A DNA stretch of 64,000 bases from Paenibacillus amylolyticus (GTDB taxonomy: Bacteria; Bacillota; Bacilli; Paenibacillales; Paenibacillaceae), in assembly GCF_029689945.1 (NCBI RefSeq), contig NZ_CP121451.1, positions 4,340,001 to 4,404,000 of the forward strand, given 5' to 3'. Below the pieces are notes generated by a model. It saw only the letters and a list, made by a program, of their open reading frames with translations, had not been told where the DNA came from and made no database searches. The translations under genes were made by a program, and so were the position numbers. Within the stretch, counting starts at the first letter, position 1, and each line of letters opens with the position of its first letter. Of this stretch, positions 1,050 through 63,378 are shown piece after piece.

Positions 1050-1471
1050 TCATTCCTTATATTGTAGAACCCAATATCTTGATCCAGGCTCACCTTCTTC
1101 GACGACAGCCTTCCAACCTTGCTTTTTATAAAATGTGAGTGCTTTATCATTATCAGAGACACATTTTAATGTGACTGGCGTTCCCAATACGGCCACGGAT
1201 TGCTGGAGTAACTGTTTTCCCACCCCTTTGCCGGCAGCACTCGGGTGCACAAACAGATTATGAATAAAGCGGTCAGGTACATATAGTGACGCAAATCCAA
1301 GCACTTGATTGTTTTCCTCTGCCAAAAGAATCTGTTCTTCCGATGTATCCCGGTCAAAATCGTCTAGTCTCATCTCATCGGCATCGGCCCAGTGAAAGCT
1401 CTCCGCCGGGAATCCAGATAAATATGTCTTAATTGTGGATAGTCTGCAATACTCGCTTCTCTAATGATCAT
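1050..1471 (-). pseudogene. GNAT family N-acetyltransferase, frameshifted
   Basis: The C-terminal 107 residues form a clear GNAT domain with the acetyl-CoA loop AAGKGVGKQL and the late NDKALTFYKKQGW motif. The missing N-terminus lies just upstream in another frame, starting MIIREASIADYPQLRHIYLDS from an ATG at 1471 with a GGGG box before it. The frames meet near 1402-1410, where one extra G in the CGGCGG run would restore SRRESFHWADADEM. A one-base deletion, real or from sequencing error, therefore breaks an otherwise normal gene of about 140 residues. The substrate is unknown. Confidence 0.7.
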
Positions 1472-1510
1472 CCGATCAATCCCCGTTTCTCTGTTTCATC
1501 CATGTCGTTG

Positions 1511-2092
1511 TTATCTGGAGCCGACCTTTACCATTTGTTTGGCCTGCACACGACCTGCCTGTAACAAGTCATCACTGAACTTCGCATCACTAACTGCCCG
1601 TGCCAGTGCAACGGTACCTACCATACTGCTTACCAACGCATAACCATCAGCTGTATTCATGCCAGCCATCGTTGTAATAAACGCGATAAAACGTTGCAAC
1701 TCCTGCGTGTAAGCTTGTCGAATATCCTCCGATAGTTGGGAGATCTCTCCCGATAAAGCGGGTAAGATACAACCGACTTCCGTCTGATCTCGATGCAGGG
1801 AACTTAAATAAAAATCAATGACAGCTTCAATCGAGGTCTGCTCTTCCTCTTTGTTTTTGTCTGCAATTTTCTGCAGCATTTCAATGGTGTCACTAATGGC
1901 GAAATGACAGGTCTCCATCACAAGCTGATCCTTATTATCAAAATGGGAGTAAAATCCCCCATGTGTCAGTCCAGCACCTTTCATAATATGTGGGAGACTA
2001 ATACTCCGCACGCCGTGGGTTCGAAATGCTTTGGCTGCGCTGGTAATAATATGGTTCCGAACTTTGAGTTTGTGCCCTTTCGGATAAGGCAT
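1511..2092 (-). CDS. TetR/AcrR family transcriptional regulator
   Basis: This 193-residue regulator has an N-terminal TetR helix-turn-helix (AKAFRTHGVRSIS..HIMKGAGLTHGGFYSHFDNKDQL, residues about 20-60) and a helical ligand domain with a cysteine at EVGCILPAL. The ATG at 2092 has AAAGGGGAG at good spacing; the GTG nine bases upstream touches that site and is unlikely to be used. It is divergent from the flavoprotein at 2290. Near-identical AT-rich sites occur in both promoters, so it probably represses itself and its neighbour. The inducer is unknown. Confidence 0.85.
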   Translation of the reverse strand: MPYPKGHKLKVRNHIITSAAKAFRTHGVRSISLPHIMKGAGLTHGGFYSHFDNKDQLVMETCHFAISDTIEMLQKIADKNKEEEQTSIEAVIDFYLSSLHRDQTEVGCILPALSGEISQLSEDIRQAYTQELQRFIAFITTMAGMNTADGYALVSSMVGTVALARAVSDAKFSDDLLQAGRVQAKQMVKVGSR

Positions 2093-2137
2093 CCTGCTCA
2101 CTCCCCTTTGTAAAGGTCTGTAGTTAATGTTTTTTAA

Positions 2138-2158
2138 AATATTATAGTTATCATATTA
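2138..2158 (-). promoter_or_regulatory. Putative TetR operator upstream of the tetR gene
   Basis: Read on the minus strand this site is ATATGATAACTATAATAT. It matches the left part of the site at 2231-2253 on the plus strand except for one base. It lies upstream of the TetR gene at 2092. Two matching sites in one divergent intergenic region point to autoregulation; this is inference. Confidence 0.55.
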
Positions 2159-2230
2159 TTTAATGTCAATTCATACTATCCGTATCCTCAGCAAAGGTGG
2201 AGTGACTAGAAATGGAGTATTGACCCCTTT

Positions 2231-2270
2231 AAAATATGATGACTATAATATATTATGATCATCATATTTT
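2231..2270 (+). promoter_or_regulatory. Putative TetR operator and promoter of the divergent flavoprotein
   Basis: A perfect 12-bp inverted repeat, AAAATATGATGA and TCATCATATTTT, flanks an AT-rich centre with a TATAAT-like sequence. It ends 19 bases before the start codon at 2290 and contains the same core as the site in front of the TetR gene. A bound repressor here would block the promoter. Confidence 0.6.
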
Positions 2271-2289
2271 AAATTTGGAGGTACCCATC

Positions 2290-3674
2290 ATGTATTCATT
2301 AGAAGTCGTAGACACGCTGGTCATTGGATCAGGGCCAGGCGGTTATGTCGCCGCTTTACGTTCGTCACAACTGGGCATGACAACAGCCATTGTGGAGCGC
2401 CAACAGATCGGAGGTGTCTGTACGCATGTAGGCTGTATTCCTTCCAAAGCGCTCATTGCTGAAGCAGAGCGTCTTCATATGCGCAGACAATGGGGAACTG
2501 TTGACGGCGCTTCTTCTTTCAGGAGGCCCAGGTGTTCAAGCAGGCTGTGGTGGATAAGCAGTCTGGAGGTGTTCGGTTTTTGCTTAAAACGGCGGGTGTG
2601 ACTGTTATTGAAGGAGAAGCAAGCTTGATTGATGCACATATCGCTGAAATATATCACGCTGAACAGAATACGCGTCGAATAGGCTTTAAGCATCTCATCC
2701 TGGCAACCGGTTCCCGTCCGATTGAAATAAACTCTCTTCCTTACGGCGGACGGATTCTCTCTTCCACTGAGGCGCTATCGCTGCCCGACATTCCAAAGAG
2801 TCTCGTTGTGGTTGGCGGCGGTTATATTGGCGTGGAACTGGGTCAGATGTTTGCGAGATTTGGAACTAACGTTACGATGCTCGAGGGCGGTGAACAGATT
2901 TTGCCCGGATTCGAAGCAGAGCTTGTTGCACCTGTCGTTCGTCAACTGAAAAAGGACGGGATAACCATCTTAACCGAAGCTAAGGTTACAGGAGCAGAAC
3001 AAAATACGAGTCATATCGATCTCCACTATATGCGTCAGCATGAACACCATGTTGTTCAAGCTGAATATGCATTAATTACGGTAGGCAGAAAACCGAACAC
3101 AGATGGAGCCTTGGGTCTTGAACATATAGGTCTGTCCCCTACTCCACAAGGCTTGATTGAGATTGACGAACAGTGCAGAACATCCATCCCGCATATCTAT
3201 GCCATTGGAGATATTGTTCAAGGCCCTGCTTTGGCTCATAAAGCTTCCTATGAAGCAAAAATTGCAGCAGAAGCGATCGCAGGCAAACCCTCTGTCATCG
3301 ACTACAAAGCTATTCCGCTCGTTGTGTTCTCTCACCCGGAGATTACGAGCGTTGGGCTTAGCGAAACGGCATGTAAGCAAAAATCAATTCCTGTTGTCGT
3401 TGGCAAATCTGTTTTCTCTATTAACGGCCGTGCACTGGCTCTGAAGGAAACCGAAGGATATGTCAAAATCGTTGCTCACGCTGAGTCTGGCCTTGTACTG
3501 GGTGCACAGATTGTCGGGACTGAAGCATCTACTCTTATATCTGAGCTTTCCCTTGCGATTGAGATGGGAGCAACAGTAGAAGATATAGCCATGACCATTC
3601 ATCCGCATCCAACGCTAGGCGAAATCATCATGGAGGCTGCAGAACAGGCCCATCAGAGAATGGAAAAAAAGTAA
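2290..3674 (+). pseudogene. Dihydrolipoyl dehydrogenase-like FAD disulfide oxidoreductase, frameshifted
   Basis: When repaired, this encodes about 461 residues of a class I pyridine-nucleotide disulfide oxidoreductase. The FAD-binding [10 protein letters not shown] is at the N-terminus, the redox disulfide is [13 protein letters not shown], a second nucleotide fold VVVGGGYIGVELG lies mid-protein, and the C-terminal HPHPTLGE carries the catalytic His and Glu. These features fit dihydrolipoamide dehydrogenase. No 2-oxoacid dehydrogenase genes are nearby, so the partner is unknown. Two frames meet near 2511-2520; one added T gives [14 protein letters not shown]. The start is supported by GGAGG at 2277-2281. 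Confidence 0.75.
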
Positions 3675-3759
3675 CCGGAGGTCGTTTGATTACGTTTGGA
3701 AAGTTGTATGTGAACGAATTCATATCATAAAGAGAGTAATAAGATAGGGAGAGATTATC

Positions 3760-3981
3760 TTGAAGTCTAAATGGAGACTATATATCGTCATAACTTTGAT
3801 CATTATTTTGGCAGGCGGTTTGTTGATCACGAAGGGTACAGACGCCGTGAGTCAGGCCAATCTGCGTATGACGCGGGAAAAAGGCCAATCAGATCTAAGT
3901 ATGTTTCTGATCCGGATCTCTATTCCAACAAGCACAGATTTGCTTCCGGGAATGACTGCGGAGGTGCAGCTCGGATTTTAA
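3760..3981 (+). pseudogene. Remnant of an HlyD-type membrane-fusion protein
   Basis: This short frame starts with TTG after AGGGAGAG and encodes 73 residues. It has one N-terminal membrane segment (LYIVITLIIILAGGLL) and a C-terminal ISIPTSTDLLPGMTAEVQLGF that resembles the end of HlyD/RND adaptor proteins. The biotinyl-lipoyl and hairpin parts expected between them are absent, so it looks like an internally deleted relic. Its 3' end overlaps the broken end of the convergent dehydratase fragment, marking a deletion scar. A genuine small membrane protein is possible but less likely. Confidence 0.5.
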
Positions 3982-4129
3982 AACTCTTTGCTCGTTGGAA
4001 GGACTCCAGTTTGAAAAAGTATCTTCTATTCAAGTCTCCTAGATAGAACGACTCTTCAAGTGGTGTTTTCTGCAAATGATTCTTGATTCGCTCGTATGCG
4101 TGTAACACATGTTTATAGCTAAGAGTCAT
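3976..4129 (-). pseudogene. N-terminal fragment of a threonine-dehydratase-like (EutB-like) enzyme
   Basis: From the ATG at 4129, with GAGGG before it, about 50 residues match the start of PLP-dependent serine/threonine dehydratases: AYERIKNHLQKTPLEESFYL, then FFKLESFQRAKSFKIR, which contains the PLP-binding lysine. Similarity stops right after SFKIR, where the HlyD-like relic begins. The gene follows the ornithine-cyclodeaminase-like gene by 13 bases, matching the EutC-EutB pairing often annotated in ectoine use. The enzyme must be inactive because nearly all of the catalytic domain is gone. Confidence 0.65.
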
Positions 4130-4142
4130 TTCATTTTTTCCC

Positions 4143-5147
4143 TCAGAAGTTAATTTTAACGCCGAGATTTCGTTGCTCCGCCATCTGTAACGCCAATTTC
4201 GCTGCATATATATCCAGAATCGCCATACCTGTTGCATCAAAAATGGTAATTTCTTCGTTAGAGGTTCTTCCCTCAATCTTCCCTACAATTAAATCGCCGA
4301 TCTCGCCGCATATATGGCTTTCTGTAATCTTGCCTTCTTTGAGTGGTATCTCAATCTCGCCGACTTGAATACAGTGCTCCCGATCATCTACATATAGGCG
4401 GGCTTGTGACATCACGTTGGAATCAATCTCCTGTTTCCCTGCCATATCTGCACCTATGCAAGATAGGTGTGTTCCTGGTTTTACCCATTCTTTCTTAATG
4501 ATTGGCGTTCTTGATGATGTTACGGTGATGATTATATCACTGCTTTTTACGGCTTCTTCTAGCGATTTCGCTGCTTCAAACTTGACGTTCTCTACGTTCA
4601 TCCCAAATTCAGATTGAAGTCTCTGTGGTAGTGAGTTAACCAAAGATCTCAGCTTCTCCTGGTCCCTGGCGGCGACACAAACCGTTTTCAAGTTCGAAAG
4701 CGCAGATAAGGCGCAGGCAATCTGAAAGATCGCCTGGTTTCCAGATCCTACGACAAGCAGAGTTTCAGAATCCTGTCTCGCCAGATATTTTGCTCCAATC
4801 GCTCCCGAAGCGCCTGTACGTATGCCTGTAATGTAGGATGCCTCGGTGATTCCCATTGGTCTGCCTGTTTCAGCATCGAATACGGTTATGAGTCCCGTTA
4901 AAGTGGGTAGTTGCTTCGCTTCATTCTCCGCAAACCATGTGATCGTTTTATGCCCAAATACCTTATCGCGTTTCAGATACCCTGATTTAATGTCCATATC
5001 TGCCTTGCCTGGAACAAAATCATAAAAGATGGTTGGCCAAATCTCTGTATTATTTTCACTTTTGGCTGTATACACCGTTTCAACGAGATGTATAACTTTT
5101 GCAACATTCAACCCTTGTCTGATATCGTTATTACTTAAAAATCGCAT
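4143..5147 (-). CDS. Ornithine cyclodeaminase / mu-crystallin family protein (EutC-like)
   Basis: This 334-residue enzyme belongs to the ornithine cyclodeaminase/alanine dehydrogenase family. Its NAD(P)-binding fold begins at LLVVGSGNQAIFQI, and ASYITGIRTGASGAIGAKYLA is the family signature before it. The start at 5147 is set by a strong GGAGGAGG site. A truncated threonine-dehydratase gene follows at once, so the original pair may have served hydroxyectoine or another amino-acid-like compound; activities in this family range from ornithine to imino acids and cannot be fixed here. A terminator-like hairpin sits in its leader. Confidence 0.8.
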   Translation of the reverse strand: MRFLSNNDIRQGLNVAKVIHLVETVYTAKSENNTEIWPTIFYDFVPGKADMDIKSGYLKRDKVFGHKTITWFAENEAKQLPTLTGLITVFDAETGRPMGITEASYITGIRTGASGAIGAKYLARQDSETLLVVGSGNQAIFQIACALSALSNLKTVCVAARDQEKLRSLVNSLPQRLQSEFGMNVENVKFEAAKSLEEAVKSSDIIITVTSSRTPIIKKEWVKPGTHLSCIGADMAGKQEIDSNVMSQARLYVDDREHCIQVGEIEIPLKEGKITESHICGEIGDLIVGKIEGRTSNEEITIFDATGMAILDIYAAKLALQMAEQRNLGVKINF

Positions 5148-5169
5148 CGGATATACCTCCTCCATCATC

Positions 5170-5235
5170 AAAAAAGCATTGAATCTCATCCCTCCTACAT
5201 GACGTAGGCCCTAGTGGGGAGTGAGACTCAATGCT
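5170..5235 (-). terminator. Terminator-like hairpin in the leader of the cyclodeaminase gene
   Basis: On the minus strand a long imperfect hairpin is visible, with arms at 5216-5235 and 5175-5195 and an inner CCTAC/GTAGG stem. Six Ts follow it. It ends only about 20 bases before the start codon at 5147, which leaves no room for a promoter after it. It may end transcripts from the LysR gene, or act as an attenuator for the cyclodeaminase gene. A second small hairpin, GTTTTTA-TAAAAAC, lies upstream at about 5242-5263. I do not recognise a riboswitch class. Confidence 0.5.
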
Positions 5236-5399
5236 TTAATCGTTTTTACCCGGGGATAAAAACAAGCATGATATCAAATTTGTATTTTATTTTAGCTGAA
5301 TTTGGTTGGGAATACAATGTAAATCTCCAGCTTCAAGAATGTTCCCACTTCATTAGGCATTAGATGATCTATTCATATCAATAAAAGGCTCACGCTGGA

Positions 5400-6314
5400 T
5401 TAATTCAACGAAGAACCTTTTGGATTTTGCACGAGGTTAGCCAGCTTGGTTGTAAACTCTTCGACCATGTTAGAGAGCGGTTCATCTGTTCGTGTGATTC
5501 TTCCCAAGATGGCTTTCTCAGAGCTGAATTGTTGCAAAGGAACTGTTGCTAATTGTTCACGATAGGTGGAAGACAACGCATTTAATATAAAATCTGGAGC
5601 AATCGTTATGGCATTGCCATGAACAATCATTTGGCACAATGCATCCATATTATTCGTGATCAAGGCAATACGGTTGGTATGATTAGTGGACATTAACGTA
5701 TGAGCGATATTTTCAATATGTTCATCTTTGTATAGGACAAATACTTCATTATGCAAGTCTTCAGGCGAGATTGTTTTGAAAAATCGTAATGACGAACGGT
5801 TGTTCATGATCAACACTGCGCTGCCTTTGACGATGGGAACCCATTCGTACAAATCGTCCTGTTGGCTTTTATTATATGAGAGCAGTCCCATGTGTGCATA
5901 ACCTTCTTGAACATGTTTCATCACCGTTAGCGTATCTCCTTCAATCATCTGAACTTTGAGTGTGGGATATGTATCCATCAGCTCCAGCATGGTCTGCACC
6001 ACTTGAGGAACAAAACCAGGAATGGTGGAGATCGTGATGTACTCTAAGGATTCGTCCTTGAAATTGAGCAATGCACTCTGCATATTTTCAATATTTTTGA
6101 GGACGGCTGCCGCATGTTGCAGAACAAGCTCTCCTTCTGCTGTGGGTACGACTCCCTTTTTGGTACGGTAAAAAATAACGGTATCCATCTCTTCTTCCAA
6201 TTGTTTAATGGACTGACTGATCGTTGGCACGGTGAGATGATGCGCGCTCGCGGCCTTCGTGAATGATCCCCACTGCGCAGCAGATAATAAATATTGCAAC
6301 TGTGAAATATTCAT
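5400..6314 (-). CDS. LysR family transcriptional regulator
   Basis: This 304-residue protein has the LysR winged helix-turn-helix at residues 1-60 (QLQYLLSAAQWGSFTKAASAHHLTVPTISQSIKQLE) and a substrate-binding domain from about residue 90. Its length is typical. It reads leftward toward the cyclodeaminase gene and is divergent from the esterase at 6413, so either could be a target. AGAGGG precedes the ATG. The AT-rich 6315-6412 region contains ATATTTAAATAT, a possible binding palindrome. The effector is unknown. Confidence 0.88.
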   Translation of the reverse strand: MNISQLQYLLSAAQWGSFTKAASAHHLTVPTISQSIKQLEEEMDTVIFYRTKKGVVPTAEGELVLQHAAAVLKNIENMQSALLNFKDESLEYITISTIPGFVPQVVQTMLELMDTYPTLKVQMIEGDTLTVMKHVQEGYAHMGLLSYNKSQQDDLYEWVPIVKGSAVLIMNNRSSLRFFKTISPEDLHNEVFVLYKDEHIENIAHTLMSTNHTNRIALITNNMDALCQMIVHGNAITIAPDFILNALSSTYREQLATVPLQQFSSEKAILGRITRTDEPLSNMVEEFTTKLANLVQNPKGSSLN

Positions 6315-6412
6315 CTCATCCCTCTTATTCTTAAAATAATATTTATGATACTAAATTATATTTAAATATATTTTATGTTTGTATTCAAGTATTCTTTATA
6401 TAGGAGGTTGAT

Positions 6413-7306
6413 ATGATGCGGAGTATACGAAGTTTCTTAGTCGAATTGTTGCTGAGAATGACCAAACAGAAGCTTGATGTGAATGAGTTTATGGAGAAAC
6501 GCGGAAAGAGTAACAGCTTGCCCTATGAAATACCTGCCAAACTTAAGCAGAAGTATAATATCACCAAAGAACACAGTCTCCCCGTAGACACATATATGCT
6601 AAAATCCAAATTTCGTTCGGGCGAACGAATTGTTCTGTATTTGCCCGGTGGAGGATATGTTGAGCAACCGCTAACATGGCACTGGCATTTTTTACACAAC
6701 TTAACGGAACAACTACATTGCACGGTGTATGCGCCAATCTACCCGAAAGCACCGAATTATCAGTACATGGATGCCATTGAGAGTGTTCGTAGGGTATATG
6801 AGCATGTATTAAAAATAACTGAACCGGAAAATATCGTCATTATGGGCGATTCTGCTGGCGGTGGTCTTTCATTGGCTTTTGCGCAATATTTATTAGAACA
6901 AGGATTGCCACAGCCCAAGGACATTATTCTGTTATCTCCATGGCTGGATATTACATTAAGCAACCCGGAAGTAATCACCATGATCGATCAAGAACCGATG
7001 TTGAACTGGGACATGCTGGTTGAGTCTGGGAAAAGGTATGCAGGTGAAACCCCGCGCTCACACTACTTGCTCAGCCCGATTCATGGGGAAATTAAAAGCT
7101 TGGGTAAAATTTCACTGTTTATAGGAACACATGAATTATTCCTTCCGGATGCCCGGAAATTCAAAGAAAAAGCGATCCGGCAATCGGTTGATATTAACTA
7201 TTTCGAGTATCCCAAAATGAATCATGTCTTCCCCGTATTTCCTATACCCGAAGCCAAAAAGGCGCTTAAACAGATTGTGGATATTATCCAGAGTCAAGAT
7301 AAATAG
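6413..7306 (+). CDS. Alpha/beta hydrolase, hormone-sensitive-lipase-type esterase
   Basis: About 297 residues of an alpha/beta-hydrolase esterase. LPGGGYV provides the oxyanion-hole motif of the HSL group, GDSAGGG holds the nucleophilic serine, and the C-terminal NHVFP supplies the histidine; the acid is probably the aspartate or glutamate in the preceding GTHELFLPDA region. It should hydrolyse short acyl esters in the cytoplasm. AGGAGG lies 5 bases before the ATG at 6413 and 8 before a second ATG at 6416, so the second may be the true start. It is divergent from LysR and ends at a bidirectional terminator. Confidence 0.85.
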   Translation: MMRSIRSFLVELLLRMTKQKLDVNEFMEKRGKSNSLPYEIPAKLKQKYNITKEHSLPVDTYMLKSKFRSGERIVLYLPGGGYVEQPLTWHWHFLHNLTEQLHCTVYAPIYPKAPNYQYMDAIESVRRVYEHVLKITEPENIVIMGDSAGGGLSLAFAQYLLEQGLPQPKDIILLSPWLDITLSNPEVITMIDQEPMLNWDMLVESGKRYAGETPRSHYLLSPIHGEIKSLGKISLFIGTHELFLPDARKFKEKAIRQSVDINYFEYPKMNHVFPVFPIPEAKKALKQIVDIIQSQDK

Positions 7307-7394
7307 GAGCGATAGCGTAAGAAGTGTATTGTAGATATCAGTAAACTGCAACTGAATAATACAAACTAAAAGACATAGATATAAAGAACACAGA

Positions 7395-7418
7395 AAAAGC
7401 CGCATTACAGCGGCTTTT
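7395..7418. terminator. Bidirectional intrinsic terminator
   Basis: The stem AAAAGCCGC pairs with GCGGCTTTT across a six-base loop, with A and T runs on either side. It lies between the esterase on the plus strand and the glucanase on the minus strand and can serve both. Confidence 0.8.
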
Positions 7419-7471
7419 CTTGAAGTTCAGTGGTGCATTGACAAAATCCGCCTTAACGGCATGAATAAACT

Positions 7472-10400
7472 CTATTGAATAATCAAATTAAATCCATTTT
7501 GAATCTGATGCACGTTGGGGTTGGCAATATTGCTCGTTGTCAGATGGTTAAACGTTGCTGAACCATTGCCGGTATATGTGTATATCGCTGCTCCCTTATG
7601 TGGCGTTGTGAAGCGTGATGTCTCAATTCCATCCAGACCCGTACCATTAATATTGATATTGTTAAACACAATGTTCTCGAAACCACCGCCGTAGCCGAAT
7701 TGAATGGCACTCCGCTGTGTATTGAGAATATCGATGTTTGTAAAGGTTATATTCTTAATGGCATCATTGGAAGCTTCCAGATCAATCGCTCCGCGTTCCC
7801 CGTTATACAGATCCTTGCTGGTACCACTATTAATAATTGTGGTATCCGAGAACAGAATGCCCGTGTTGTTTTGGAAATGGTACCCGGGGAAGACAGTATT
7901 CATTCGGATTGCTGAACCGCCAACCGTATCCACAATCAGATTGTTGGTGGCCTTATGTCCGCTACCTCCAAAAAAGGCGATCCCAGCCGCACGCCAATTG
8001 TTCTCAATGGTGTTAAACGAGAAGGTGTTGTTCACCCCTGCCGGTGCACCATTCACGTTGCTGGTCCAAACGGCCAGACCGTCATCACCGTTGTTGCGAA
8101 CACTGCTGTTACGTACCGTCGAATTGCTCGTGCCTTGGGCAAAGTTGACTCCATCAGCAAGGTTATTCCGAATACGACTGTTCTCAATGACCAAGCCATC
8201 GGCGATGATCGCTGGTGTGTGTGCATAATCCCCACCCAGAACCCGCATTCAAAATGCTCAACCCATACATTGCTGACTTTTGAGTTTTTACCGAAATTGT
8301 CCATAAATCCCTTGTAGACTGCATTCTCACTGTATCTTGAGCGCAGCATGGAGTTCATATAGACATTGCTGAAGTCGAGTTTGCCTTGCACTCGGAAAGA
8401 AATACCACCCGATGCTGCATTCGGGTTGGTGAATTGAATATTCGTGTGCCAAATGCCTGCACCAACAACAGTAAGGTTATTAATCATGTTAGTTGGCGTT
8501 CCAATCTTCCACATGTTGCCCAGATGGAATGTACCTTCTGGGATGTATAACGTTTTGCCTGTAGAAACGGCGGATTGAACGGCTGCTTCAAATGCGGCAA
8601 GATCATCCTTACCATCGTTAGCCACCGCACCAAAATCGGTTACAGAAACAGCGTTGGCCGGACGCGAGATTGCAGCAGGTACAGATTCAATTTCAAGAAA
8701 ATCAACGCCATATTCCAGGTTATCTCCATTAGTCTTCTGAATACGAATCGTGTCTCCAGGTTTCAGAGGTGTATCCATTTTCCAGTGAACTTCGTCAAAA
8801 CGGAACAATGGACGTCCTGCACTTGGCGCATCTCCCGGATGATCACTAGAGAAATACTGCCAGTTGTAATAAGAGGTCAGTGGAACAGTTTTGACCTTGC
8901 TGCCATTTACATACACGTCCAGCGATCCATCCAGCCCCATACCGTCTGCCGAATCCGGCATCGTAAATCGCATGGTAACTCCGGCGCCGCCTTCGCCTGG
9001 TCTGACCGTCCATTGTGCATAGGCACCATTGGATGGCAGGGCAATATACTTCTGCCCCGAGGCTTCCGACGCCGTTAATGCTTGATCAAAAGTCGGTGCT
9101 GACTTCAGTGTTGCACTACCTCCACGAGTTGCATCATCCGTATCGTACCTTGTGTACGGCATGCTTGCTCCGCGGGCAGAATATACAGTCAGCGCGGTTG
9201 CCGATACGTTGTTCGATTGTTTTACCGGGGCTTCATTACTATCAGCGGCAACGGTCGTTGTCACAGTATAGTTACCGTTTGCAGCTGTCCAGCTGCCCAC
9301 ATTGACATTGACGGATGCACCCGGAGCCAACACACCGTTATACGAACCAGAGTAAGTCTGAATCGTTGCTCCGGCAGCATTTTTGAGTACAACCGTAACA
9401 CCGTGCGCACCACCTGCTGAAGCCTGATTTCCCTGATTTTTCAGATTAACAGTAAACGCTATCGTACTGTTTACCGTAGGATTGTTCGGACTCCAGGAGA
9501 CCGTTCCTACCAGATCCGAGCTTGTGATTGGTGCAATGATCAGAGCAGATGAATGCGTATAATGGTTGTTACTTTCATTCTCTTCGATGATCTGATTTTT
9601 CTCATCCACCTTCGCGCTTAGCGTATATGATGCGGCGAACCGGCTGCCAGCGTTAAGCGCTACCGTTGTTGAAGCCCCGGCCTGCAGAGCATTTACAGAT
9701 GCAGAACCAGCCAGCTCATTATTCAGATAAAAGTTGACGGTAGATGCCGGAGATGCAGCAGAGCCCATGTTCTTAACTATGGCGTTCAGTGTGATTGGAC
9801 TGTTCTCTACAGGTGAAGAAGGCGTCCAGGACATGCCTGTAATCGTTAAGTCGGGGTTGGGTGCAGGGTTGCCAAATACCTGAAATTCAGCAATTTGCCC
9901 TGCCGGAGCGCCCGAGTTTGCTGTAATGCTGAGCTGCAGACGTTTAACCGTCGCTGTTACAGGTATCGTCACGTTGTTACCTGAAGCCGGATTGAACGTG
10001 TACGATTGGGCAGACACCAGATTACTGAATGTGGTTGTATCCTGGTTATGTCCAAGCACTTGAATCGTCTGCGTTCGCGTACTCCAAATCGGATCCGGGT
10101 TTAGTCTCAGTACAATGGCTGTAATCTGATGATTGGAACCGAGGTCCAGCGTCAGCGTGCTCGGATTGCTGCCTCCCTCCCAGTACGTATTGATCTTATT
10201 ATCGTTTGCATTCGCAGCGACATAAGACTGACTGCTGGAAGATGCCGTGATTGCTTTGCCAATCGCAATATTCGTTCCTTCCACAGGCGCTCCGGGTTCA
10301 GTCGGGTCAGGATTCGGTCCCTGCGAAGACGGACCGTAAATTTCAAATTCAGACAATTGCGCAGCGGGCCATTCGGTATTTCCGGTCACCATGAGACGAA

Positions 10401-10842
10401 CATACCGTGTTTCTTTTGCTTCAAAATTAATCGTAGTCGTATTCTCTGCCACGGATGGATCAAATATATAGTCCTTGGAAGCAACGATGTCTGTGAACGT
10501 TGAACCGTTACTGCTCCCTTGAATGGTGATAGTCTGTGAGCGAGTTTCCCAGGCTGAAGGCAGCTTTAAGTTGATTTGTTCAATAGTCGTATTTGCTCCA
10601 AGATCCACTTGAATCCATTGCGGAAATGCGTTGTTTGCACTCTCCCAGTAGGTCGTCTGATTACTGTCAATCACATGGGTAGGGCTATACGTTTGGTTGT
10701 AGCTGCTTGCGGTAACCTGTTTGCCCAGTGCCAGATTCGCTCCACCAGCAGCTGAGACTTTGGCAGGAGATCCTACATTCAGGAATACGTTCGAGACCAG
10801 CATTGTTAATACGAGTGACCATAACATGTATTTGCTGCGCAT
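7472..10842 (-). pseudogene. Secreted GH87 alpha-1,3-glucanase-like enzyme, frameshifted
   Basis: When repaired, this is a secreted protein of about 1123 residues. It has a signal peptide (1-31), two discoidin/F5-8-type carbohydrate-binding domains (about 34-170 and 188-324), two CARDB-like domains (about 330-555), a beta-sandwich region, and a right-handed beta-helix from about 720. The helix contains ADGVNF and, 23 residues on, GDDG. That three-aspartate spacing matches the catalytic residues reported for GH87 alpha-1,3-glucanases, as I recall them for Paenibacillus AglFH1. One G is missing in the run at 8230-8233 (minus strand), which splits the catalytic domain. GAGGAGG precedes the ATG. 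It is last in the sugar transport operon. Confidence 0.75.
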
Positions 10843-10860
10843 TTAATTCCTCCTCAGGAT

Positions 10861-10909
10861 GCTATATAAACCGCTACTTTCGCATGGATGTTTCTGCGGG
10901 TTATATAGC
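10861..10909. other. Hairpin between the solute-binding protein and glucanase genes
   Basis: A 14-bp inverted repeat with one mismatch, GCTATATAAACCGC at 10861-10874 and GCGGGTTATATAGC at 10896-10909, fills the gap between two minus-strand genes. On that strand no T-run follows it, so it is more likely an mRNA-stabilising or processing structure than a full terminator. On the plus strand it is followed by seven Ts, but no plus-strand gene ends here. Confidence 0.55.
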
Positions 10910-10946
10910 ATAATTTTTTTCAAAAAAAGGTGAACTAAATTTCAAA

Positions 10947-12560: not shown

Positions 12561-12599
12561 ATGGCGCCCTCCTTAATTCGTAATGAATGACTGTCTGCC

Positions 12600-13519
12600 T
12601 TATTCCTTTACTGCGCCGATCATCACCCCCTGATTAAAATACTTTTGGATGAACGGATAGACACACATGATCGGAATTGTGGCGATTATAATCACGGAAT
12701 ATCTCATTAGATTTGCAAGACGCAAGGCGACTTGTGCAGCCTCCCGGTTCCCATGCCCGACTGCATCTGATTCGTAATGAGAATGTTACGCAGGATCAAT
12801 TGAAGCGGATACAGGTTAGGATCTTTCAGATAGATGAGGGCATTAAAATATGAATTCCAATATCCTACGGCAATCCATAACCCCAAAACCGCGATGATTG
12901 CTTTGGACAACGGCAGTACAACCAGCACAAAATACCGCAGATTGCCGCAACCATCGATCTGGGCTGCCTCCCATAGATCCCCTGGAATGCTGGTCTGAAA
13001 GAATGTCCGCGCGACGATCATATCGAACACCACTACGGAGAATGGTAGCACCATGACGAGAAATGTGTTGTAGAGATGAAAATCACGAATGGTCAGAAAG
13101 GTTGGAATCAATCCGCCGCTAAAGAACATCGTAAAAATAAAAAACAAAGAGAAAAATTTTCGTCCTACCAAATCTTTTCTTGATAAGGCATAAGCCGCCG
13201 AAATATTAACAACAAGTCCGATCAGCGTTCCTACCACCGTGTATAGAATGGTATTGCGATATCCAATCCAAATATTTTCGTGCCTCAGCAGTTCCTTGTA
13301 CCCTTCAAGCGTAAAACCTTTGGGAAAGACCCATACCTGTCCGTTAGCCACAGAAGAGGGATCACTGAAGGAGGCAATGACTATAAAATAGATCGGGTAT
13401 ATAATCGCAATCAGAAAAAGAATAGCAAAAGCATACATTATAGCTTCTGCCACAGTCAGGCGTGATTGTCGTTTAACACGGGGAGTTCTGGTGGTTGCTG
13501 TCGTCTCCATAACGCTCAT
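12600..13519 (-). pseudogene. Sugar ABC transporter permease (YtcP/LplC-like), frameshifted
   Basis: When repaired this is a 306-residue membrane permease. The ABC-contact EAA loop is EAAQIDGCGNLRYFVLVVLPLSKAI. The C-terminus typical of the family (YPFIQKYFNQGVMIGAVKE) is present but in another frame; one G missing from the GGG run at 12750-12752 ends the first frame early. The ATG at 13519 has AGAGGGGAG before it. It lies 16 bases downstream of the first permease and 39 bases upstream of the solute-binding protein gene, clearly in one operon. Confidence 0.8.
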
Positions 13520-13535
13520 TTGGTTTGTCTCCCCT

Positions 13536-14459
13536 CTACCATAGGCTGTTCTCACTGTATTTCTTGGACAACTGATTGACCAGAATGAGCAGAATGAAAT
13601 TAATCACCGTATTAAACAGGTTAATTGCCGAGGAGAAGCTGTATTGACTGCTCAGCAGACCGATTTTGTATACATACGTAGACAGAATCTCACTGGAAAG
13701 GATGTTCAAGTCGTTCTGCATAAGATAGACCTTCTCAAATCCTACACCAAGCAATCCGCCCATCCTTAGAATGAGCAGCGTGATCGCCGTCGGCAAAAGC
13801 ATCGGGATATCAATATAACGAATCTTGTGCCACCTGCTTGCCCCATCGACCGTTGCCGCTTCATAGAGGCTTGGATCTACGGCAGACAACGCGGCAATAT
13901 AGATGATGCTGTCCCAACCGACGTGCTGCCACACATCAGACCATACATACACACTGCTGAACAGAGCCGATGAGCCCATTAAGTCCGGTGCTTGTGCTCC
14001 AAAGAGCTGATACATATTGCCAACCAATCCAGTGCTGGGCGAGAACAGAATTAGCATTAATCCGACCATGACTACCGTTGAAATAAAGTGGGGCATATAG
14101 GAGACCGTCTGGAAAAAGCGCTTGAACCTCCCTGCCCTCATCTGGTTCACCATTAATGCAAGCATAATCGGAAGCGGAAATGTAGCCAAACTGTACAGGC
14201 TGATTATAAGTGTGTTACGTATCGTATTCGTAAATTGATAGGAATGAAAAAACTTCTCAAAATACTTGAACCCTGCCCATGGACTGCCCCCGATTCCCGA
14301 GGCCGGACTATAATCCTTGAATGCGATAATAACGCCGTACATTGGCTTATAAGCAAAAAGTAGTGTTAACACAAAAGCCGGAAAAAGTAAAACGTAAAGC
14401 CCCCAATTGCGCCTGATTCTTTCCATTGTCTTTCCAAAGAATAGTGGGTAAGTCCGCAC
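13536..14459 (-). CDS. Sugar ABC transporter permease (LplB-like)
   Basis: This permease has about 307 residues and six predicted membrane segments. The EAA loop is YEAATVDGASRWHKIRYIDIPML. It pairs with the downstream permease to form the membrane channel. The start is uncertain: a GTG at 14459 has GGAGGG eleven bases upstream, and an ATG at 14426 begins closer to the usual family start. It is the first gene of the transport and glucanase operon, divergent from the sensor kinase. Confidence 0.85.
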   Translation of the reverse strand: MRTYPLFFGKTMERIRRNWGLYVLLFPAFVLTLLFAYKPMYGVIIAFKDYSPASGIGGSPWAGFKYFEKFFHSYQFTNTIRNTLIISLYSLATFPLPIMLALMVNQMRAGRFKRFFQTVSYMPHFISTVVMVGLMLILFSPSTGLVGNMYQLFGAQAPDLMGSSALFSSVYVWSDVWQHVGWDSIIYIAALSAVDPSLYEAATVDGASRWHKIRYIDIPMLLPTAITLLILRMGGLLGVGFEKVYLMQNDLNILSSEILSTYVYKIGLLSSQYSFSSAINLFNTVINFILLILVNQLSKKYSENSLW

Positions 14460-14793
14460 AGTTCTTTCTTCCCTCCTTCCCATGTACTGATGCTGTTTTC
14501 CCGTTTGAATCTTTCGTCTCGGGACTAACCTCAGTATAAACGGTTGACCACGCTCTTTATCGGACCCCTTCGGACGGTATTCGGACTTCTGATATTCTTT
14601 TCTGGTTTTGCCTGCGGTTAACCTCAATCATGCGAAAGAAGACATATTGCAATCCAGACCTTCCTAGGTGTATTCCGGACTTTTGAACTCCAAAAAAGCA
14701 AATCTTTATGTTTTTTTCAAGCAAAGGTTTTATACTATTTCTAAGATATTAAAGCGCATACATTATGAAGCATTCTAGAAAGGGTGTATTGTT

Positions 14794-25836: not shown

Positions 25837-26730
25837 ATGAAGAAAACGATGATGTTAAGCTTACTCATAGTCATTACAGCAGGATTGATCTGGTGCAACT
25901 GGGGGCTTGTTAGGACAGGTCAGAATCAGCCGGACTCTATAGCTGGTACAAGCAGCTGGCAGGAAAACAGGCTTATTGCACATGCATTTGGTGGAGTTGA
26001 CGGTGCCAGCTACACCAATTCTTATGAGGCGTTTATAACCAATTACAATCGAGGGTATCGTTTGTTCGAGGTTGATCTTGTGCAGACGACGGACGGGAAG
26101 CTTGTAGCCAGACATGATTGGTCGCAGAAGCTACAGCCGGATTTGGCCGCTCATCGCGGACGAAACGTAACCAAGCTTCAGTTTGCAGACTCGCTTATTA
26201 TGGGCAGATTCCACCCTCTTACCCTGCCGGACATACTGCAGCTGATGCAGCAATATCCTGATTTCGACTTAATTGTGGACACGAAAGCAGGCAGCAAAAA
26301 GCAAATTCAGCAGCAGTTTACGCATCTGGTCAATGAGGCACGCCGTACGGACCCTGCCCTGCTTAACCGGGTTATACCTGAGATCTTCAGCCCGGAAATG
26401 TATGCTACCGTTATGGGAATCCACCCCTTTCCCAACAAAATATATTCACTTTACAAAACTGGCGCCTCCGCTGAAAGTATTGTAGAATTCGTAAGGGACA
26501 AACAACTGACAGCGGTTGCCATGCCTGTATACCGGGTGTATCTCAACCCCAATTTAGTTCCAGCACTGAATAAGTTTGGGGTAAAAAGTTATGTTCACAC
26601 CGTCAACAGCAGACCGGTTATGCAGATGCTGTCCCGGTTTGGGGTGCATGGGTTTTATACGGATGAGGAAGAAACACCAGAGAAGCTGATGCTTGCACAC
26701 GCTCCCCCGGCCATGTTCCGGAATACATGA
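25837..26730 (+). CDS. Glycerophosphodiester phosphodiesterase family protein
   Basis: This 297-residue protein has an N-terminal membrane anchor or signal segment and a GDPD/PI-PLC-like TIM barrel. The core motifs are IAHAFGGVDG, FEVDLVQTTDGKLVARHD and DLIVDTK, with HTVNS and GFYTDE late in the barrel. The motifs place the metal-binding and catalytic residues normally, although the first His-Arg pair is replaced by His-Ala. It probably cleaves glycerophosphodiesters outside the membrane. AAGGAGCAG precedes the ATG. The two-component genes follow in the same direction. Confidence 0.82.
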   Translation: MKKTMMLSLLIVITAGLIWCNWGLVRTGQNQPDSIAGTSSWQENRLIAHAFGGVDGASYTNSYEAFITNYNRGYRLFEVDLVQTTDGKLVARHDWSQKLQPDLAAHRGRNVTKLQFADSLIMGRFHPLTLPDILQLMQQYPDFDLIVDTKAGSKKQIQQQFTHLVNEARRTDPALLNRVIPEIFSPEMYATVMGIHPFPNKIYSLYKTGASAESIVEFVRDKQLTAVAMPVYRVYLNPNLVPALNKFGVKSYVHTVNSRPVMQMLSRFGVHGFYTDEEETPEKLMLAHAPPAMFRNT

Positions 26731-26778
26731 GTTCCGGATTAGCAAGTTTAAGAAATATCGTGATGAAGGTGAGAAATA

Positions 26779-27478
26779 ATGGCTATCAATAACATTCTTG
26801 TTGTAGATGATGAACGGGAAATTCGAGAAGCGCTCGTTATTTATTTGAAAAGCGAAGATGTGTATGTATTCACTGCCTCTAACGGATTGGAGGCGCTGGA
26901 GATTCTTGAACAAGAAACCATTCATCTTATTATCATGGACAACATGATGCCGCAGCTGGATGGAATTAAAACAACATTTAAAATTCGTGAAAACAAAAAT
27001 ATACCGATCATTATGCTTTCCGCCAAGTCAGAAGATAGCGACAAGATTTTGGGACTCAACGTGGGCGCTGATGATTATATTACGAAGCCATTCAATCCTC
27101 TTGAGTTAATCGCCAGAGTCCGATCTCAGCTGCGCCGCTTTACGAATTTGGGTTCCTTCCAGTCAAACGGGGATGAGCTCATTCAAGTAAGAGGACTCGT
27201 GCTGAACAAAAGCTCGAAGACTGTTGAGATAGATGGTGAGGATGTCAGACTAACCCCAAAGGAATACAAAATTTTGGAAGCTGCTGATGGAGAACAAAGG
27301 CAGAGTTTTCTCCATCGAAGAGATTTATGAGCGCGTGTGGAATGAACTGATCTTCACTTCAGAGAATACGGTTGCCGTACACGTGAGAAACATTCGTGAA
27401 AAAATTGAAATCAATCCTAAAGACCCGAAATATTTAAAGGTGGTATGGGGAATTGGATACAAAATCGAGAAAAAATAA
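26779..27478 (+). pseudogene. OmpR-family response regulator (VanR-like), frameshifted
   Basis: The receiver has ILVVDDE, the phospho-acceptor in LIIMDNMMPQLDG and the lysine in YITKPF. The winged-helix effector (VRLTPKEYKILE, then NKGRVFSIEEIYERVW and NTVAVHVRNIREKIE) is split at 27278-27279 by one extra A; removing it gives KILELLMENKGRVF and a normal 232-residue regulator. It overlaps the downstream kinase start and forms a two-component operon with it, perhaps including the GDPD upstream. The symbol is not certain. Confidence 0.82.
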
Positions 27479-31796: not shown

Positions 31797-31864
31797 TGTA
31801 CACCCCTATCCAGCCTTGTTCTCCAGCTTTAATTATATTTAACCCAATCTTAGCACAGACACTT

Positions 31865-32027
31865 TAGGACGTGTCTCAAAACTCACTGAAGTGCATCTTT
31901 TACCGCCTTTTCGCCCCTGCTGCGTCACTTTCCCTTGACGTGCCCCGGCACGCCTGCGGAAAATCTCCTTGCTTGGAACGAAAATTCGGCAAAATCTGCG
32001 TCCTTCGGAGTTTTCAGACACGCCCTA
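31865..32027. mobile_element. MITE-like element, copy 2
   Basis: This is a second copy of the element at 495-656, in the same orientation and with the same terminal inverted repeats (left end TAGGACGTGTCTCAAAACTC). The two copies differ at about a dozen positions, so they are not recent duplicates. TA borders both ends. It lies 68 bases upstream of the response regulator start and 84 bases upstream of the GlsB-like gene, so it sits in a divergent promoter region. Confidence 0.7.
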
Positions 32028-43677: not shown

Positions 43678-44261
43678 CTAACTTTTTCGGTAAGCAACCT
43701 TATGAAAGTCTTCAATATAACGAAAAAGTTTCTCACCCTCATCAGACACCTTCGTGCTTCCATCCAGTGGCAACATCATGGCCTGATAAGGTTCAGGAAC
43801 CACTCGATACTGATGAACATAGGAGGTTAGAACAAACCCGTTGTGTTGCCAAAACTGAATACGTTCCTGATGGGCCTCTGTTGTCCCGGACTCCGCCTCG
43901 ATGATGATGCCTTTGATCCCATGTTCCCTTAATGCCCAATCTCTGAGTTGCTTCAGCATCCATGTACCGATACCCGACCGCGCAGCGTCTGTTCAACCGC
44001 AAGGTAATCGATAATCAGGATGCGGTCTGTCCCCTTCCCCACGAGTCCAGTAACAGCCATCGCGACCACTTCTCCATGATGCACGCCTGTGTGTAAATAA
44101 CCAATGCGCCGATCCAGCATACTGCGAAGAATTGCTTTTGTCTTGGCTCCGCTTGGAAAAGCTTCATGATAGATCCGCTCCATCCGCGCCCATAATGCTT
44201 CATCCCAAGCTTCTAATGTCGTAAACTCTAATTCCAGCAATTGTTTCACCCCTAGATCCAT
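43678..44261 (-). pseudogene. GNAT family N-acetyltransferase, frameshifted
   Basis: When repaired this is a 194-residue GNAT. The first part (EAWDEALWARMERIYHEAFPSGAKT..IIDYLAVEQTLRG) and the second (MLKQLRDWALREHGIKGIIIEAE) join across one missing G at 43973-43975; restoring it gives LRGRGIGTWMLKQL, the acetyl-CoA loop. GAGGGAG precedes the ATG. It lies just downstream of the ABC exporter genes. The substrate is unknown. Confidence 0.78.
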
Positions 44262-51030: not shown

Positions 51031-51043
51031 ATACTCTTCTCCT

Positions 51044-53461: not shown

Positions 53462-53480
53462 CATGTTTTATCCAATGAAA

Positions 53481-53506: not shown

Positions 53507-54336
53507 CGATTTGAACATGCAACATCTGTTGTCAGACAAGTATTACTGCAAATCCAGGATTTTTTGAACCGTTAGAAGAACACCATTCTCTTCGTTGGAT
53601 TTCGTGATGAAGTTTGCTGCTTTTTCGTATTATCACAAGCATTACTTACTGCAAAGCTATATTTGGCGATGGCCATGAGCTCTACATCATTCTCACCGTC
53701 ACCAAATGACATCGTCTCCTCATAAGTGACACCCAACATGTCTTGCAGTTTTTTAACCGTCTCTCCTTTATGTGTGTGCAATGCCGTAATATCCAGCCAT
53801 TTAGCCTCGGAGTCAACAATGTAAATCTGTCCCATCATTGTACGCTCCACATGTGCTCTTAATGCTGTACTTCGTCCTTCCGTATCAAAAACCGTAATTT
53901 TGATAAAACGAGTTTCGATCGTTTCAAAGGAATCTGTTTTTATTACACGTTCATAGGAGCTCTTAACCACCTTGTACATCTCCTCTGAAATGGAAGAATG
54001 AACGTAAGCAGCATCACTTGCACATACAATAAGAGTCATCGTTTTGTCGAAGTCCTGGATTCGATCAATCGCCTTCAAGGCGAGCTCCTTGTCCATGCTG
54101 AACTCTTTGACAACTTCACCATCTCTTTTAATTCGAGCAGCACTATCACCCAGAATCCAAACCCCTTTACCGTGCTCATCAAATAGTTTCTCTACCCGCT
54201 CACATTGTTTCCCGGTACATGCGACAAAGGTGACTCCTTTTTGCTGCATCTCTGGTATTATCCCCTCAAGGTAGACAGTGAAAAAGAGATCATGTTAAAA
54301 TGAACTCAACACTGAAAACCGGAGGGGATTTTTGTT

Positions 54337-54675: not shown

Positions 54676-54689
54676 GTAAGTGGGCACCT

Positions 54690-55639: not shown

Positions 55640-55876
55640 TATTTTAGTATGTCCTGTTTGTCTTTTCGGATTGAGATCACCATCTTTATTTATACACTTT
55701 ATAATGTATATTTAGTAAGTGTTTAAAAAAGAGATCCATCGTGAGTTGCCTGTAAGATTGTGTGATCTCTCTCTATAAAGCAAGATTAAAATATGTAACT
55801 GGTTTCATGTCAACTCTTATTTTGAATTTGATATGAACATCCTCGCCGCCGCAAAAGCTGGTTACAGCCTATCCGC
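55640..55876. other. Intergenic region with the HAD promoter
   Basis: This AT-rich gap lies upstream of the HAD gene start. I see no reading frame worth calling. An AATATACATTATAAAG stretch on the minus strand is a possible promoter for the HAD gene. Confidence 0.35.
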
Positions 55877-56374: not shown

Positions 56375-56420
56375 GGTGCACCTTCTTTCTCCAAATATTG
56401 TACAAGTTTTGGAAGACATA

Positions 56421-56515
56421 GTCATAGCCCCGTCCATTATACATTAAAAAAGAGTTTTCTATTAAGCGGCGACTTTTTCCCAAAAATCGATTAGGGGAAA
56501 AGTCGCCGAGTTTTA
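56421..56515 (-). mobile_element. Solo end of an IS3-family element, inverted relative to the full copy
   Basis: About 95 bases match the reverse complement of the right end of the element at 54253-55531, including GTCATAGCCCCGTC and TTAAGCGGCGACTTTTTCCC. Read on the minus strand it ends with the OrfB C-terminus as LGDFSPNRFLGKVAA. Mismatches show it is an older, related element. The rest of the element is missing. Confidence 0.8.
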
Positions 56516-56538
56516 AGTTATGTGATATGGTTTGTTAC

Positions 56539-57870: not shown

Positions 57871-57906
57871 TTTAAATTCCTCCTGATCAATTTCTATTTT
57901 ACGTCT

Positions 57907-59070: not shown

Positions 59071-59106
59071 ATCCTTTCTTCTCCTCCTCAAACCCGCACT
59101 GAAAAG

Positions 59107-59985: not shown

Positions 59986-60002
59986 AGACTTCGCTTCACC
60001 TC

Positions 60003-60869: not shown

Positions 60870-61169
60870 GGTTTTCTAGATTCATCCTTTCACAGTTAAG
60901 TTTAGTCTTTCATTCTGGTTCCTGTTTCGCCTCCCTTTAAAGTTATTTTAGAAAAGATTGCTTAAGAAAATAGTGGTAAAATATTAAAAAATTATAAAGT
61001 TTCTTACTGAGATCACATTGCTCCTCTTGCACAAATTCGAGCAAAATGAATGATTATATACAATAATTCCTCGTTCGATAAGGAGATCTTAAAATCTGGG
61101 CTCCCACCCATTCCCCTGTTCAATTGCCTACATACAATACATTAGACTAATGAACAGGAGTGATGTGAT
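60870..61169. other. Divergent promoter region
   Basis: This gap separates the sugar ABC operon (minus strand) from the glycine-rich gene (plus strand). It must contain both promoters. I see no further gene, and an AT-rich stretch at 60958-61000 may hold the minus-strand promoter. Confidence 0.4.
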
Positions 61170-61565
61170 ATGACATTTTTACCTCCTTTTGGACCTGGTG
61201 GAGGATTCGGCGGACCGGGTGGTCCCGGAGGACCTGGAGGCCCCGGAGGCCCCGGTGGATTTCCTGGTCCGCCATCCTTCCCTGGCGGTGGAGGTGGCGG
61301 ACCACAAGGCGTTCAGCAACCTCCCGGTCCGCCACCATCATTCACTCCACAGCAACCCGCTGCTACTTTGTATGCGGTAGATCCAAGAGCCATATCCGGC
61401 TGTCTGTTTCGGTACACCTATATCTGGCCGGATCGTGGTCCCGGCTTCTGGATGTACCCGGTATTTGTAGGTAGAAATTCGGTGGCTGGCTTCCGTTGGA
61501 ATGGTTTCTTCTGGCTATACACCGGCATCGATCTGCAGCGAATCAGTTCGTTTAGCTGTTTCTAG
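61170..61565 (+). CDS. Gly/Pro-rich protein with a conserved C-terminal domain
   Basis: This 131-residue protein has an N-terminal GGP/GPG repeat tract (residues 7-58) and a C-terminal domain rich in aromatic residues (DPRAISGCLFRYTYIWPDRGPGFWMYPVFVGRNSVAGFRW, ending SSFSCF). Two cysteines near its ends could form a disulfide. Similar Gly-rich proteins occur in Bacillus and Paenibacillus, perhaps at the spore or cell surface, but the function is not established. AGGAGTGATGTG precedes the ATG, and there is no signal peptide. Confidence 0.78.
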   Translation: MTFLPPFGPGGGFGGPGGPGGPGGPGGPGGFPGPPSFPGGGGGGPQGVQQPPGPPPSFTPQQPAATLYAVDPRAISGCLFRYTYIWPDRGPGFWMYPVFVGRNSVAGFRWNGFFWLYTGIDLQRISSFSCF

Positions 61566-61571
61566 AAGAAA

Positions 61572-61605
61572 TCCCCTGTATACGGATCAATCCGTATACA
61601 GGGGA
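61572..61605 (+). terminator. Perfect terminator hairpin after the Gly/Pro-rich gene
   Basis: TCCCCTGTATACGGAT pairs perfectly with ATCCGTATACAGGGGA over a two-base loop, followed by CTTTAATTTTTG. It lies between convergent genes and may serve both. Confidence 0.8.
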
Positions 61606-61639
61606 CTTTAATTTTTGTATTTGGACTAGTTCAGCTTGT

Positions 61640-63378
61640 CTAAAGCAACTTAATCAGCTTTTCCAGTTCATCAACCAATCTTTTTGCAAGTTCAAAATTA
61701 GTATCTTTTAAAGCCAATTCGATTTTCATTTCAACAGACTTTTTCTGTTGTTCCGTTTCCAGATAGTTTTCATCGAAATGACTCGTATATATCATCTCTC
61801 TAAATTCTTCTATACTCATTTTAGTGATCGTTTTGTCCTCAATAATCAAAACATAATCCATACCATTTACAACCGAATAGAAATCATGAGAAATCATGAG
61901 AATTGCACCTTTGTAGTCCTCAATAGCTTTTTCCAATGCGATTTGCGAGTAGATGTCTAAATGGCTTGTCGGTTCATCCAGAAGCAACACGTTTGCTTGA
62001 CTGGCAGCAACTTTGGCCAGTTGAAGCATATTTTTTTCGCCACCAGATAAAGATTCTATCTTCTGATCAAGGATTTCCCCTTCGAAGCCATAGTCTGTAA
62101 GATGAGATCTAATCTCATCATACGTTTGGAACCCGGCATCAATAAAGTCGTTTAGTATCGTATTCGAATCCTTGAGCATTTCGCCTTGGAACTGAGATAA
62201 ATAAGCCATCGTGGCATCAGCATGTATTTCAATGGAATCCTGATTATTTTGGGAGATTTCTCGAAGTAACGTCGTCTTCCCGGTACCGTTTGGACCAATC
62301 AAGGCTACTTTGTCCGTTGATCTGATCTGAAAGTTCACATTTTTCAAAAGTAACTCGTCAAAGGAAACGCCATAATTATGGACGTTAACCACAACGGTGT
62401 CTTCGATTTCGTTATCCATACCGAAACGGATATTTGGCTGCTTGATATCAACAAAGGGCTCTTTAATTCGACGTGCTTCCAATCGCTCTTGAAACCTGAC
62501 TCTGGCTTTTAACGCTCTGCCTCTGGAGGCTTCCGAGTTATACGTGGCGATCTCTCTGAGATTGTCGATGATGTGGTCGTATCTCTCAATCTCTTCAGCT
62601 TCAGCAACCGCGATTTCTTGCAGCTCGATCTTCGTCTGAAGCAGCGAGAAGTTGTAATCGATGTAGCGCCCGTCAAACTCTTGGAGCTCCGTGTTTTCAA
62701 GATGTATTATTTTATTGAAACAATGATTCAACAGATAGCGGTTGTGCGTAACAACGAGCAGCATTCCTTTGTGGGAATTAATCAATTTTTTAAGTGCATT
62801 CAGGTTTTCGAAGTCTAAAAAACATCGGGTTCGTCCATGATCATGAAGTCTGGACGATTCAGCATTTCCTTCATCACTTGAATAAGTTTGAATTCCCCGC
62901 CGCTTAATTCGGATACATCCAGATCCTTTAGCTTCATGAGGTTGGCCAGGTTGAGCTGCTTATTAATGGTGTTTTCGTAATGATCCCCATCCATTGCCTC
63001 GAAGGCATCCAAAGCCAATTGAACTTTATCCATCAGCGAATCCATATCGGATGTCGTTGCCATTTCCGCATAAAGGGCTGTGATTTCGTCTTGTATCTTG
63101 ATGAATTCTTCTCCGATGAATTCAAAAACGGTCATTTCTTTCGTGCGGTCAACTTGCGAGAACTGACTCACATACCCGATTTTGCAATCCGGGTCTATCT
63201 CCAATTTACCATCAAACAAATATCTTTCCGGATCCATCAGTATATCAATCAGTGTACTTTTCCCACTGCCACTTGTTCCGATAAAAGCGCAATGTTGCGC
63301 TTCTTCAAGCGTGAACGAAATATGGTTATACAGTTCTTTTTGTGGAAACGAGAAGGATAAGTTATCAATTTTTATCAT
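61640..63378 (-). pseudogene. ABC-F type ATPase, frameshifted
   Basis: When repaired this is a 579-residue protein with two ABC domains and no membrane segments. The first domain has Walker A GTSGSGKST and signature LSGGEFK, the second has GPNGTGKTT, LSGGEKN and LLLDEPTSHLD. A short inter-domain linker (about residues 260-310) matches the ABC-F layout. These proteins work on the ribosome, and several give antibiotic resistance. One T missing from the run at 62817-62822 breaks it; restoring it gives DEPDVFLDFEN. The start at 63378 has AGAAAGG. A short leader frame and hairpin precede it. Confidence 0.85.

Follow-up and report, generated by a model that had tools for sequence, protein, structure and literature searches.

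Bacterial genomes assembled from nanopore reads alone are described in the Homopolish report (PMC8011154) as keeping systematic homopolymer insertions and deletions (indels) even after polishing, which leads to an excess of pseudogenes. According to the account given with Kastor (PMC12007338), false deletions dominate the errors of long-read assemblies and mostly follow runs of 2-8 bases, with a peak at 4-5; in the same account, annotation of one bacterial draft yields 1,101 pseudogenes due to frameshifts only, A/T runs form the most frequent class of error in the nanopore genome studied, and homopolymer indels are cited as the main error class of PacBio reads. Here we examine a 64,000-nucleotide stretch of the Paenibacillus amylolyticus genome (G000:C1:4340001-4404000, ‘the window’), in which a first-pass annotation, made from the letters alone, had noticed widespread one-base indels that break genes and had interpreted them as assembly errors. 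Comparison with relatives from the same genus confirms the observation and supports the interpretation: the breaks are almost certainly consensus base-calling errors, in a genome that most likely comes from single-molecule long reads and was not fully corrected.

Frame breaks were counted as frame-shifting gaps that appear when the open reading frames (ORFs) of relatives, of at least 100 aa, are aligned to the window. Positions 1-16000 were searched in 60 Paenibacillus genomes, this genome included, and the remaining window in 15 of the others, with longer stretches of several relatives added to the comparison. Among overlapping ORFs the longest was kept, identity had to be at least 75 % and at least 60 % of the ORF had to align in one piece; gaps at most 12 columns from an end were dropped, as were pairs that cancel within 45 columns. 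A strict call required at least three relatives and at least 75 % of the relatives covering the site, a loose call two relatives. We adopted the strict rule because the relatives too give loose calls, some of them at ORFs that are spurious or intergenic. In the window region six relatives gave 2 to 4 loose calls apiece; in the region carrying rpoB and ribosomal genes (the rpoB-ribosomal region), four relatives gave 7 to 11 apiece and this genome 25. In the window the loose rule gave 42 break clusters, 22 of them with at least two supporting relatives.

With up to 15 same-genus genomes, the strict rule gave 18 breaks per 36,128 comparable coding bases of the window (15 one-base losses, two one-base gains and one two-base gain), every one supported by all of the relatives covering it. 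A nineteenth, in an alpha-1,3-glucanase-like gene near 8233 (4/4 relatives), was found after the extra stretches had been added. The 18 breaks lie in 13 genes; the glucanase gene is the fourteenth, and a HAD hydrolase gene, discussed below, the fifteenth. When each of the 15 relatives was taken as the focal genome, 13 breaks were found per 244,068 bases and seven relatives had none, about one tenth of the window rate (p about 4e-9). Identity between window genes and the best of the seven relatives used ranged from 83.5 to 97.7 %. The first-pass annotation had proposed a check against related strains, and this places a frame break at, or no more than about 5 bases from, all eight of the intervals it had named: near 8233, 12745, 24403, 25351 and 28175 (4/4 relatives each), 36998 (12/12), 49024 (7/7) and 62821 (9/9). 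Its figure of about seventeen broken genes was a fair one, if slightly high (14 genes, or 15 with the HAD gene). The broken genes are the following, with fractions giving the relatives that support a break among those covering the site:

1050..1500, minus strand: GNAT acetyltransferase; break near 1402, 4/4; PF00583 in the relative's intact copy
2236..3674, plus strand: pyridine nucleotide-disulphide oxidoreductase (dihydrolipoyl dehydrogenase-like); break near 2519, 4/4; PF07992/PF02852
7472..10842, minus strand: alpha-1,3-glucanase-like gene; break near 8233, 4/4 (G001, G003, G040 and G044)
12600..13555, minus strand: ABC-type permease (BPD_transp_1); break near 12745, 4/4, and a separate run, 3/3; PF00528
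23628..25581, minus strand: beta-glucoside PTS IIABC (bglP-like); breaks near 24403 and 25351, 4/4 each
25837..26792, plus strand: glycerophosphodiester phosphodiesterase-like gene; break near 26704, 3/3; PF03009
26779..27478, plus strand: response regulator; break near 27278, 4/4; PF00072/PF00486
27453..28768, plus strand: histidine kinase; break near 28175, 4/4; PF00512/PF02518
29668..31047, minus strand: HAMP histidine kinase; breaks near 30250, 30323 and 30388, 14/14 each; PF00672/PF00512/PF02518
35680..37635, minus strand: Firmicute fructose-1,6-bisphosphatase (fbp); breaks near 36998 and 37134, 12/12 each; PF06874; dN/dS 0.048
43678..44260, minus strand: GNAT acetyltransferase; break near 43979, 4/4; PF13508/PF00583
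48491..50076, plus strand: FAD-dependent monooxygenase (FAD_binding_3); break near 49024, 7/7; PF01494
51053..52441, minus strand: MATE family transporter; two breaks here, unbroken in 4/4 covering relatives at each; PF01554
61640..63473, minus strand: ABC-F ATPase; one break here, unbroken in 9/9 covering relatives; ABC_tran PF00005

The break near 2519 is the only two-base one in the strict set, and the window fragment of that oxidoreductase falls slightly below the cut-off of TIGR01350. The fragments of the bglP-like gene match different portions of TIGR01995, the NCBIfam ABC-F models fall below cut-off on both fragments of the ABC-F ATPase, and the glucanase gene is made up of ORFs 7472-8248 (catalytic domain D2) and 8053-10842 (D1). 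A search of the window with Rfam at gathering thresholds gave no match. The three breaks of the kinase at 29668-31047 fall inside 140 bases; strict breaks are nowhere else in the window so densely clustered, perhaps because the reads support this patch poorly.

The rpoB-ribosomal region has 13 strict breaks per 43,098 bases, against none per 119,973 in four relatives. Seven of these breaks lie in named essential genes (two in ispD and one each in gltX, rplA, rpoB, tuf and rplR) and two in other sense-strand genes. A further region, L252, has three breaks per 17,474 bases (ispH holds one) against six per 86,991 in five relatives (three in G040 and three in G003, apparently the same three; none in G027, G015 or G020). 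The region L238, which offered little comparable sequence, has no break in its 7,262 comparable bases and none in its controls. Breaks were therefore present in three of the four regions compared (window, rpoB-ribosomal and L252) and in mutS, in a comparison that covers a small part of the genome. Over all regions, the strict rule gave 34 breaks per 103,962 comparable coding bases against 19 per 461,652 in the relatives (p about 3e-13); 28 are one-base losses, five one-base gains and one the two-base gain.

The named genes are essential ones, and a living cell cannot be without rpoB, gltX or rplA. The sole copy of rpoB is divided here between frames of 853 and 401 aa, against a single frame of 1188 aa in G003, G020, G027 and G040 (4/4). 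The sole full-type copy of gltX is present as two adjacent halves (the other match is weak, about 64 bits, and common to all five genomes searched), and the start of rplA is out of frame in this assembly. The first-pass annotation had argued for assembly error from the damage to central genes such as fbp, an argument much strengthened by broken rpoB, gltX, rplA, tuf, rplR, ispD and ispH. Completeness is 95.84 here, against 99-100 in seven same-genus relatives. In addition, a weak match to the rplA model at G000:C1:1894840-1895049 lies in a frame of 318 aa, against 491-503 aa in four relatives, and this gene is perhaps another broken one.

The losses bear a clear mark of homopolymers. Runs of at least three bases hold 22 of the 28 one-base losses and make up about 17 % of the sequence of two relatives; the description of the indels as mostly homopolymeric stands to that extent, with four losses at lone bases and two at doublets. 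Among G/C runs, 5/164, 5/29 and 4/4 were one base short at lengths 4, 5 and 6, compared with 3 in 10,000 for single G/C bases; among A/T runs, 5/190, 6/66, 2/15 and 0/3 were short at lengths 5, 6, 7 and 8. In G027, the control genome for this curve, none of 121 G/C runs of at least 4 and none of 188 A/T runs of at least 5 was short. The claim that losses from G/C runs dominate holds only modestly by count (9 of the 15 strict window losses, 16 of 28 over all regions) but strongly per run, with 9/33 G/C runs short at lengths 5-6 against 11/256 A/T runs (p about 8e-5). G/C runs of at least 6 number 3.5 per 100 kb here against 7.4-10 in three relatives, and none of at least 7 was found in 460 kb of this genome. 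The short share of long runs is similar from region to region (window 7/118, rpoB-ribosomal 15/281, L252 5/72) and does not differ clearly between coding and non-coding runs (20/392 and 7/79, p 0.19); two non-coding runs are longer. We also considered a strand bias, as the losses in the window, read on the plus strand, are nearly all of C or T; this idea was dropped because the losses of all regions are mixed (C 11, A 7, T 5, G 5) and most of the broken window genes lie on the minus strand.

As would be seen with long-read error, then, the one-base indels are mostly losses, the rate of loss rises with run length, and neither coding sequence nor essential genes are spared; the assembly also has few contigs (three, for 6.83 Mb; 6,832,320 bases in all). 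We infer that the cause lies in the reads or their consensus and not in the living DNA. Homopolymers would be under-called, with runs of 4 to 6 G/C or 5 to 7 A/T dropping one base at a probability that would rise with run length and be higher for G/C; a single lost base would then shift the frame and make a whole gene resemble a pseudogene. Comparable coding sequence has 3.3 breaks per 10 kb overall; if breaks are evenly spread, we infer that the 6.8 Mb hold roughly 2,000 broken frames.

Like the assemblies described in the Homopolish report (PMC8011154), which were corrected by means of relatives, this one has homopolymer indels and false pseudogenes; those genomes, unlike this one, have a known truth. 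In both reports, the homopolymer indels that long-read bacterial assemblies retain give rise to false pseudogenes by the hundreds or thousands. PMC12007338 cites homopolymer indels as the main error class of PacBio reads; they are the main class here as well, and the sequence fits nanopore and PacBio alike. The present case fits the published long-read errors and is an ordinary artefact of data quality, not biology.

Several observations weigh against this account. G/C runs are worse per run here, whereas A/T runs are the largest source of errors in the Kastor report (PMC12007338). Eight one-base losses, in shorter runs, are also found in the control G027, and the relatives are not free of breaks, since 13 of their 19 strict breaks fall in the window region. 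At four of the 13 rpoB-ribosomal breaks the relatives offer nothing but antisense ORFs or an ORF of 91 aa that has no name. Rates per 10 kb are uneven (window 5.0, rpoB-ribosomal 3.0, L252 1.7, L238 0); the window and the rpoB-ribosomal region compare at p 0.21, and L252 does not differ significantly from its controls (p 0.18). ORF length over 20 spread stretches is no more than slightly reduced (a mean of 247 aa, against means of 254 and 267), and ORF-length statistics were dropped as a measure of the error rate, being too weak. Finally, a few of the window breaks may be real.

Real gene decay, in a lineage losing genes through slippage mutations, seems very unlikely as the general explanation. 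In its favor, an insertion sequence does interrupt the HAD gene, and four window breaks supported by two relatives only may be either real or spurious. However, real pseudogenes would show relaxed selection, and the median dN/dS is 0.100 in the 13 broken genes against 0.108 in 29 others, with the glucanase gene counted among the latter (p 0.76); the HAMP histidine kinase at 29668-31047 has a value of 0.099 despite its three breaks. Real pseudogenes would also gather extra nonsense codons, and each of the 13 broken genes has at most one stop in aligned codons, which we take as the natural stop. Two of the 29 other genes have three stops each in aligned codons; by our reading of the coordinates, the relative's ORF in these cases is read from further upstream than that of the window. 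The concentration of losses in runs of at least three also speaks against decay, as does the breakage of genes that decay would be expected to spare, with rpoB and gltX hit in their sole copies and rplA broken too. Because rpoB is broken, decay is contradicted at most sites.

It is similarly hard to credit that the genome is that of a mismatch-repair mutant (hypermutator) whose homopolymers truly slip. Such a mutant is expected to show slippage that grows with run length, and a dependence on run length is what we see. Moreover, mutS itself lies over two frames here, and two further MutS-like matches sit in open frames that are longer in 4/4 relatives (the three loci, mutS included, are G000:C1:3849683-3852087, 5927719-5928762 and 2718089-2718799). 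Read literally, these broken frames could account for real slippage. However, mutS too is broken by the loss of a single base, which 4/4 relatives do not share, and at 3.3 per 10 kb about 0.9 breaks would be expected in a gene of that size. Private substitutions, compared in one 18-kb region, show no raised share of transitions, with an ordinary transition/transversion ratio of 2.17 against 1.41-2.94 in four relatives; in the same region this genome has 8 private one-base indels, the three closest relatives have 0-5, and G040, which is more distant, has 11. Essential genes suffer equally, and losses far outnumber gains (28 against 5). We give just as little credence to a combined picture, namely a true mismatch-repair mutant with real homopolymer slippage in dispensable genes across the genome, sequenced as a mixed population in which essential genes would be intact in the living cells but mis-called in the consensus.

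Programmed frameshifting, phase variation or tolerated transcriptional slippage might be thought of as many of the sites are homopolymers, yet such functional breaks have next to no chance of being the explanation, as the relatives have a single unbroken frame at these sites, and hence no conserved recoding site, and the runs, none of them longer than 7, lie within unrelated genes, rpoB included.

Annotating the affected genes as pseudogenes would be wrong at most sites, as the first-pass annotation had warned; the HAD gene is an exception. That gene had been counted as a member of the indel series, to which it belongs only in part, as it has a one-base break near 53624 against G046 (near 53620 against G044; two relatives) and is chiefly broken by an inserted element:

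53543..54254, minus strand: HAD hydrolase (Hydrolase_3), cut by the insertion sequence near the gene start; PF08282
54255..55529, plus strand: insertion sequence with an rve/HTH_21 transposase and an 8-bp flanking direct repeat; PF00665, PF13276

The insertion sequence is 1,275 bases long, and G046 has an empty site with a single HAD ORF of 271 aa across it. This insertion is a real lesion and not an assembly error.

The window also holds two copies, at 494-656 and 31864-32027, of an interspersed element of about 163 bases with inverted-repeat ends (in the copy at 494-656, GGGCGTGTCT...AGACACGCCC), too short to code for a transposase. Copies, mostly 84-98 % identical, are scattered over many places in many of the genomes searched within Paenibacillus. 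The site corresponding to 31864-32027 is empty in both G003 and G001, and the junction is consistent with duplication of a TA target. The element appears to be of the miniature inverted-repeat kind; a literature search for Paenibacillus and ‘miniature inverted-repeat’ found no paper with these terms in its title or abstract.

This genome represents its species in the collection that was searched. By extrapolation, miscalls may affect roughly 2,000 of its frames, so that counts of gene loss, pseudogenes or core genes that make use of it would be wrong. The sole copy of rpoB offers a quick test for genomes with such errors.

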